NCBI GenBank assembly: GCA_009782955.1 | Contig: WRIB01000019.1 | Location: forward strand, 1-42,802 | DNA: 42,802 bases | DNA from: Treponema sp. | GTDB lineage: Bacteria > Spirochaetota > Spirochaetia > Treponematales > Breznakiellaceae | Direction of reading: 5' to 3' | Shown: positions 18,782 through 19,392 of the stretch, piece after piece | How the letters are laid out: each line of letters opens with the position of its first letter | How positions within the stretch are numbered: position 1 is the first letter of the stretch | Translations under genes and position numbers: made by a program | Notes under the pieces: model-generated | Told to the model about the DNA's origin: nothing | Database searches by the model: none | The model's input: only the letters and a program-made list of their open reading frames with translations

Positions 18782-18985
18782 CCAGTTACTGGGCGCTTAA
18801 CTAAGCGGCAAGGGTGTAACCATCCATACCCTTCGGGCAGTGCCAGAAGGCAGCGCCCGATACATTGAAGGCGCCTTTGAAATGGTGTAACATGGCACTG
18901 AGCGGAAGGATTATACGGCGGCTATTCGTGCCAGCGGAGCTGGCGACGCCTGGCAGTGTCACGCGGTGAAGCCACTGTATTATTT
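18782..18985 (+). repeat. tRNA-derived structured repeat, copy 1
   Basis: It begins (18782-18821) with 40 bases matching the leader and 5' half of the downstream tRNA-Val (32 of 40 by eye). Instead of an anticodon loop there follows a UUCG-capped hairpin (CCCTTCGGG), a small stem TGCC-AGAA-GGCA, and GCGCCC (18853-18858), which can pair with GGGCGC at 18791-18796 as an acceptor-like stem. Then come a 46-base block (18851-18896) also found at 19281-19326, the block CACTGAGCGGAAGGATTATA, a GC-rich hairpin, and CAGTGTCACGCGGTGAAGCC, which resembles the 3' anticodon-stem side of the tRNA. No protein-coding frame is shared with copy 2. Function unknown: decayed tRNA genes or a tRNA-derived RNA. Confidence 0.55.
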
Positions 18986-18990
18986 GAAAA

Positions 18991-19122
18991 CGGGTTACTG
19001 GGCGATTAACTCAGTGGCGAGAGTGCTACCAGGCGCCCTTCGGGACGCGCACTGAGCGGAAGGATTATATGGCGGCTGATCAGCCGCCAGCAGTGTCACC
19101 CGGTGAAGTCACTGCATTATTT
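18991..19122 (+). repeat. tRNA-derived structured repeat, copy 2
   Basis: Bases 18991-19030 match the leader and 5' half of the tRNA-Val (35 of 40 by eye), including D-arm and the 5' side of the anticodon stem. About 60 bases replace the anticodon loop: a UUCG hairpin (GCGCCCTTCGGGACGCGC), the block CACTGAGCGGAAGGATTATA shared with copy 1, and a perfect 18-base palindrome at 19071-19088. Then CAGTGTCACCCGGTGAAGTC resumes tRNA-like sequence, but the T-arm and 3' acceptor are missing. A 23-codon frame from ATG 19070 exists but its start is not conserved in copy 1, so an RNA-level role or plain decay is likelier. Confidence 0.55.
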
Positions 19123-19130
19123 GGGTATAA

Positions 19131-19220
19131 CCAGTTGGTGGGCGATTAACTCAGTGGCGAGAGTGTTACCTTCACACGGTAAAAGTCACTGGTTCGAATC
19201 CAGTATCGCCCACCAACTGG
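19131..19220. repeat. 16-bp perfect inverted repeat enclosing the tRNA
   Basis: 19131-19146 (CCAGTTGGTGGGCGAT) and 19205-19220 (ATCGCCCACCAACTGG) are exact reverse complements. They consist of the 7-bp acceptor stem extended by 9 bp in which the 5' leader pairs with the discriminator base, the encoded CCA and the 3' trailer. In the precursor the CCA end would therefore be buried in a helix until processed. Confidence 0.85.
19140..19215 (+). tRNA. tRNA-Val (anticodon CAC)
   Basis: Folds as a full cloverleaf by eye: acceptor GGGCGAT/ATCGCCC (7 bp), D stem ACTC/GAGT with loop AGTGGCGA, anticodon stem TTACC/GGTAA with loop TTCACAC, giving anticodon CAC, variable AAGTC, T stem ACTGG/CCAGT with loop TTCGAAT, discriminator A and encoded CCA. 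It reads GUG valine codons. The CCA and both flanks take part in a longer inverted repeat, and partial copies of the gene lie on both sides. Confidence 0.9.
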
Positions 19221-19247
19221 CAAATGCTTTTACATGAAAAAACATGA

Positions 19248-19275
19248 ACAGTTCAAATCCAGTTTCGCCCCGCCA
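19248..19275 (+). repeat. tRNA-Val 3'-half remnant
   Basis: The segment CAGTTCAAATCC then AGTTTCGCCCCGCCA matches the T-arm, acceptor and CCA end of the intact tRNA (CTGGTTCGAATCCAGT then ATCGCCCACCA) with a few changes. It has no 5' half beside it, so it is a fragment. Confidence 0.5.
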
Positions 19276-19280
19276 AAAAG

Positions 19281-19326
19281 CAGCGCCCGATATATTGAGG
19301 GCGTATTTAAAATATTGTAACATGGC
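19281..19326 (+). repeat. 46-base repeat shared with tRNA-derived copy 1
   Basis: CAGCGCCCGATATATTGAGG through CATGGC aligns without gaps to 18851-18896 (about 39 of 46 identical by eye). It directly follows the tRNA 3' remnant, as expected if a copy like copy 1 was broken or rearranged here. Confidence 0.6.
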
Positions 19327-19392
19327 GTAGGCCCAAGAATGTAAGTGTTTGCGAAAAAGACGAAGGGCCGCACACAGAACAGGAGTACTTTT

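Follow-up and report, generated by a model that had tools for sequence, protein, structure and literature searches.

Why should a working tRNA gene lie among pieces of itself? The question is raised by a stretch of 42,802 nucleotides from a Treponema sp. assembly (GCA_009782955.1, contig WRIB01000019.1, positions 1 to 42,802; hereafter the window), in which an intact tRNA-Val(CAC) gene is preceded by two tRNA-derived units and followed by a lone tRNA 3' part (Table 1). A preliminary description of this DNA had left three readings of the cluster open, namely tRNA gene decay, remnants of a tRNA-targeting element and a tRNA-derived RNA. The GAC and TAC tRNA-Val of the same genome are single genes on other contigs, as seen in a tRNA scan of that genome.

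Table 1. Features of the tRNA-Val(CAC) locus, in window coordinates
Feature	Position	Strand	Remarks
Unit 1, decayed tRNA-Val positions 1-31, outermost relic	18791..18821	+	
Unit 1, anticodon-loop E1 whose first hairpin region is expanded by a dispersed-block copy	18822..18959	+	
Dispersed intergenic repeat, copy 1 (the 46-base block of the preliminary description)	18842..18896	+	
Unit 1, tRNA-Val positions 34-52 (anticodon 3' side and variable loop)	18960..18977	+	
Unit 2, tRNA-Val positions 1-31, 1 difference from the intact gene	19000..19030	+	
Unit 2, E1 (two hairpins around CACTGAGCGGAAGGATTATA) in the anticodon loop	19031..19096	+	model R3, 59 bits at C19:19031-19097
Unit 2, tRNA-Val positions 34-52, up to the split in the T stem	19097..19114	+	
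Inner-segment leader, whose final 9 nt base-pair with the trailer start and lengthen the acceptor stem	19115..19139	+	
Intact tRNA-Val(CAC), the inner gene, with encoded CCA	19140..19215	+	Rfam tRNA, 68.8 bits
Trailer of the inner segment	19216..19250	+	
Positions 53-72 of the split outer tRNA-Val, its displaced 3' part	19251..19270	+	
Dispersed intergenic repeat, copy 2; similarity to other copies extends to ~19375	19272..19326	+	

Both units proved real, but their boundaries had to be moved, from 18782-18985 to 18791-18977 for unit 1 and from 18991-19122 to 19000-19114 for unit 2. Each starts with the 5' half of tRNA-Val and ends tRNA-like, as had been described; more precisely, positions 1-31 are followed by an insert and then by positions 34-52, so that the inserted segments, already said to sit where an intron would, occupy the anticodon loop in both. 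The conserved block noted as common to the units is equally borne out, with the 20-mer CACTGAGCGGAAGGATTATA exact in the two. Positions 1-31 of unit 2 match the intact tRNA with an E value of 3.7e-10, and unit 1, built on the same plan with more decay and an extra block, scores 43 bits (E 3e-9) against a covariance model made without it; it reads as a further, more decayed and still older layer of the same kind. Both units stop at the T stem (about position 52). The lone 3' half, present but with its start shifted from 19248 by three nucleotides, comprises precisely the part that they lack, which places the intact gene inside a split older copy.

When unit and 3' piece are read jointly, they describe an outer tRNA-Val cut at 33|34 by an insert and at 52|53 by a segment with the intact gene. 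The 136 nt between the split points (leader 25, tRNA 76, trailer 35) hold the tRNA as their sole content, and leader and trailer together lengthen the acceptor stem of the inner gene by 9 bp. Compared with this inner gene the outer copy has 3 changes, and compared with the tRNA type of congener G003 it has 1. The sequences directly support a reading in which an older tRNA-Val is split in its anticodon loop by a ~68-nt element (E1), and the same gene is split at the T stem (52|53) by a segment made of a leader, a complete tRNA-Val gene and a trailer. The double split leaves a 5' part upstream (unit 2), a T-arm half displaced downstream, and only the inner gene intact. The units would then be layers of broken tRNA-Val genes, with copies of a dispersed, mobile-like element in their anticodon loops.

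One further similarity had been reported, a 46-base block repeated at the locus. Two copies are indeed present, one within the insert of unit 1 and one right after the lone 3' half, but the match measures 55 nt at 84% identity and recurs on contig C25 of the same genome and in congener G004. We therefore rejected the block as part of the tRNA-derived unit; it is a second dispersed intergenic repeat of the genus, which explains this similarity without a link to the tRNA. Its copies, including the two in the window (18842-18896 and 19272-19375) and those at L030, L031 and L032, follow the pattern GCGCCCGA..ATTGAGGGCG ... GGCGTAGGCCC ... GGGCCGC and have unrelated neighbouring genes. The acceptor-like stem that had been drawn for unit 1 from GGGCGC and GCGCCC is not favoured either, since GCGCCC belongs to this block and pairs locally with TCGGGC in the predicted minimum-energy fold; on that fold we rejected a tRNA-mimic structure for unit 1.

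The insert of the units has a life of its own. E1 was first recognised as dispersed because the unit model also matched the insert alone elsewhere, and it proved to be a non-coding repeat of about 66-68 nt with two hairpins, sometimes in tandem with a repeat of ~68 nt. Its copies lie inside a tRNA-Pro T-loop element of the own genome, at position 7/8 of tRNA-Met genes, and between genes. A model built from 23 copies finds matches in 19 of 40 genomes, with no more than 29 per genome, the weaker matches not having been read singly. Changes on both sides were found in 9 of 12 predicted pairs, and the hairpins thus covary; for the middle stem (P2), the third, covariation was equalled by 143 of 2000 shuffles and is only suggestive. 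The covarying hairpins belong to the insert itself, but E1 is equally at home outside tRNAs. For the units, E1 and the T-loop elements alike, Rfam returned no family other than tRNA, either at gathering thresholds or at E<=1. A pattern scan for E1 gave no match in viral contigs, and in genome contigs it matched four spirochaete contigs only, three of them from one Treponema MAG; the named carriers are a spirochaete MAG and a Treponema MAG, and we infer that the family of the window belongs with termite-gut treponemes.

Several E1 copies occupy settings worth recording. In genus g1 (the own genome, G003 and G004) some E1-like matches stand directly upstream of an ATG; at L196 and L197 (own genome, C3 and C46), L213 (G004, C37) and L267 (G003, C15) the final hairpin, with AGGAGG, abuts the start codon, and some of these repeats may serve as 5' UTRs of genes. 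A second tRNA-Val(CAC) at L105 (also L164) carries an E1-like element in reverse orientation at position 6/7 of an otherwise complete gene, and this insert would need to be removed to yield a tRNA. At L012 (G009:C175:13-360) two inserts, after positions 44 and 67, interrupt the 3' half of the outer tRNA-Val, and the latter insert is an E1 copy (E1 model match at C175:277-344). At L264 and L274 (family f5, G021), E1 repeats, partly arrayed, lie within T-loop-like elements, a nesting of element in element.

The T-loop elements (model R2) turned up when the tRNAs of the own genome served as a control. They are structured sequences of ~130-150 nt, often in tandem, behind many tRNAs, and their far side usually carries a 17-19-nt copy of the 3' end of the host tRNA (from about position 56). 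In the own genome, where the copy measures 18-19 nt, they follow tRNAs for Gln, Ser, Leu, Tyr, Ala (two), Gly and Pro (L165-L172; contigs C13, C15, C84, C26, C24, C57 and C10), and in relatives they occur at L219-L247. R2 has matches in 39 of 59 relatives; in a phylum-wide set of 296 genomes, 43 have them. A tRNA lies upstream of 44 of the 46 matches that were read; in 39 the end of that tRNA is repeated over at least 12 nt (by script count), and 42 carry an antisense arm of at least 9 nt matching the same tRNA.

To place the locus in context, 59 relatives served for comparison of the region and 200 family genomes for comparison of the tRNA. Incomplete copies of the resident tRNA flank 34 of the 117 distinct tRNA-Val(CAC) loci read, these being loci in draft, mostly multi-contig genomes whose contigs often break at nested loci. 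Two classes were distinguished. In class A a cut after position ~27-29 of the outer tRNA accommodates a leader-tRNA-trailer segment, as exemplified by G050, where both outer halves are 100% identical to the inner gene and the arms GCGGCAAGCGCAACCC / GGGTTGCGCTTGCCG are flush with the cut; class B, the type of the window, is cut at 52|53 and carries an insert in the anticodon loop. At 13 loci the split parts on the two sides of the gene are complementary. All class B outer copies contain E1; no intact gene does. Two other tRNAs show the same design: at tRNA-Met locus L212 three 5' remnants stand upstream, two of which carry E1 in their anticodon loops, and three 3' remnants follow on the downstream side; at tRNA-Pro locus L209 the split falls at position 26, with matching arms CGATCCGATCGACA / TGTCGATCGGATCG.

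The extended acceptor stem of the window is also a recurrent feature. With a threshold of at least 6 contiguous bp beyond the acceptor stem, leader and trailer pair in 35 of 116 tRNA-Val(CAC) genes as against 2 of 109 other tRNAs; these two are L212 and L209, both of which, when read afterwards, proved nested as well; both had been chosen through their E1 matches, so that the two are no random sample. In tRNA-Val, pairing and partial copies co-occur (21/40 versus 3/74; Fisher p 3e-9, a value that overstates the number of independent events because tRNA-Val loci share descent). The ends of 17 segments pair with their own partner at a mean of -20.4 kcal/mol, and with a partner swapped in from another species at -8.6 kcal/mol (permutation p 5e-5). 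The arm sequences differ between species and the complementarity is species-specific; since own partners nevertheless pair strongly, pairing has been kept as sequence changed.

Local tandem duplication followed by decay would dispense with a mobile cassette: leader and tRNA 5' part would be copied upstream, 3' part and trailer downstream, by slippage at strong hairpins, with E1 arriving later. Hairpins promote slippage, the units in L131 and L212 are near-identical tandem copies, and the outer parts match their own inner gene exactly in L022, L087 and L097 and nearly or fully in G009, so that duplication on two sides could possibly have built part of the pattern at some loci. However, complementary split points on the two sides (27|28-30 or 52|53) would require coordinated events, the remnants of L212 are equal in number on both sides, and at 7 of 15 loci the outer parts are nearer the tRNA-Val of another genome than their own inner gene. 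As an account of the nests in general, we consider duplication unlikely.

Gain and loss at a fixed site bear on what the units are. A syntenic site behind a conserved gene is common to eleven genomes of genus g71. Two have units there (L084, L116), three have remnants (L086, L112, L159) and six have neither, and this is our main ground for reading the units as insertions and relics. In the genus of the window, congener G003 has an undisturbed tRNA-Val at an apparently orthologous locus, before what by eye is apparently the same HAD-type hydrolase gene; intact tRNA genes at the same places in relatives are what the preliminary description had associated with mere pseudogenes. The covariance-model search that it had proposed found full class B units in 9 of 200 family genomes, restricted to the window's genus and g71.

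These distributions weigh on the idea that the units, each a tRNA D-arm with E1 in the anticodon arm, are RNAs made and kept for a regulatory or decoy role. In its favour, the class B unit keeps 88% mean column identity between two genera, the E1 hairpins covary as described, and E1 at 33|34 together with a T-stem split co-occurs in the tRNA-Val of two genera and in a tRNA-Met. Yet a unit taken alone shows no better fold than shuffled sequence does (z -1.2), E1 occurs outside tRNAs too, and units are absent from most species at the syntenic site; given this patchiness and the fold, an RNA role is unsupported and we give it very little credence.

Nesting, recurring split sites, kept arm pairing, dispersal of E1 and presence or absence at one site are what we observe. 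They are probably best explained as stacked nested insertions, the fossil record of successive insertions and replacements at a tRNA-Val(CAC) hot spot, in which the units are dead relics, a combination of targeting-element remnants with decay that the comparative evidence favours among the three earlier readings. The leader-tRNA-trailer segment would be a small mobile cassette able to take the place of the resident tRNA with function preserved, putatively moved by a recombinase or by a structure-directed process, and the outer copies would be dead, not expressed RNAs with a job. Several findings pull against this explanation: the arms share no sequence between species, unlike transposon ends; no excised segment, circle or recombinase was seen; independent E1 insertions would not predict the strict association of E1 with class B outer copies; inner and outer copies in the window differ by few changes; and the nested loci lie in draft assemblies, often at contig breaks. 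A more general possibility, which we advance tentatively and rate as rather doubtful, is that this order of spirochaetes harbours a class of very small mobile elements, defined by structure and resident in tRNA genes. Equipped with a self-complementary leader and trailer, a tRNA gene would be a selfish cassette homing into and replacing its own kind, dependent elements would target anticodon loops (E1) and T-loops (R2, through its target-matched antisense arm), and the machinery would recognise structure instead of conserved end sequences.

The locus thus presents a working valine tRNA gene nested, in the manner of a Russian doll, in the remains of older copies of itself, an arrangement that recurs in many relatives and around two other tRNA genes. 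Insertion into tRNA genes is already known for large islands with their own integrase; here a bare tRNA gene with complementary arms lies repeatedly inside split copies of itself, and its sequence is sometimes nearer that of another lineage. Should the segment prove mobile, a gene for a housekeeping RNA can itself be selfish, and the nests would be a layered record of tRNA gene turnover. E1, a previously undescribed tiny hairpin element, and the T-loop elements add abundant structured sequences without an Rfam entry.

A literature search of open-access journal articles found no published description of nested tRNA genes or of E1 or T-loop elements in spirochaetes. Like bacterial tRNA group I introns, E1 sits in the anticodon loop of a tRNA gene; it differs in its size of ~66 nt and in a host copy truncated at the T stem, so that splicing out E1 alone could not give a tRNA, and no Rfam match to a group I catalytic core was obtained at gathering thresholds or at E<=1. 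With small palindromic repeats of the REP/BIME type (RAYT or IS200/IS605 derivatives), E1 has in common that it is short, dispersed, sometimes tandem and non-coding, with two hairpins forming imperfect palindromes, but E1 sits precisely in tRNA anticodon loops. Y1 transposases were the sole helper searched for, and they were rejected as such because their genes do not track E1 or R2; seven E1 carriers, most of them incomplete genomes, gave no Y1 match (G001, G002, G003, G004, G009, G010 and G012).

Islands in tRNA genes are another parallel, and the remnants might in principle be scars of deleted tyrosine-integrase islands that once occupied tRNA-Val and left att-like fragments. Such scars leave one fragment type on one side, whereas here both halves flank a whole gene, the inserts span only ~70-160 nt, the arms differ by species and directly abut the split, and the layering is repeated; we judge this origin distinctly improbable. 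Precedent for it exists nonetheless, since Islander-type islands insert into tRNA genes by means of tyrosine integrases, split them and leave displaced fragments (PMC4383910), and a mobile element was identified as the origin of an archaeal tRNA fragment lying ahead of an intact gene (PMC3293823). As in those islands, the target tRNA at our locus is split, the insert re-creates a complete gene and displaced fragments lie at the ends, but the insert is a whole tRNA with leader and trailer of ~120-160 nt without cargo (the 136-nt segment of the window contains no tyrosine recombinase gene, only the tRNA), remnants of both sides, 5' and 3', persist, and one such event is nested within another. 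The disrupted tRNA-Thr of Caldiarchaeum, a locus with introns and a 1.8-kb recombinase-coding insert, likewise has a 5' tRNA fragment that is followed by an intact tRNA of that type, the fragment being ascribed to insertion of a mobile element (PMC3293823); relative to it, the inserts described here are tiny, non-coding and nested.
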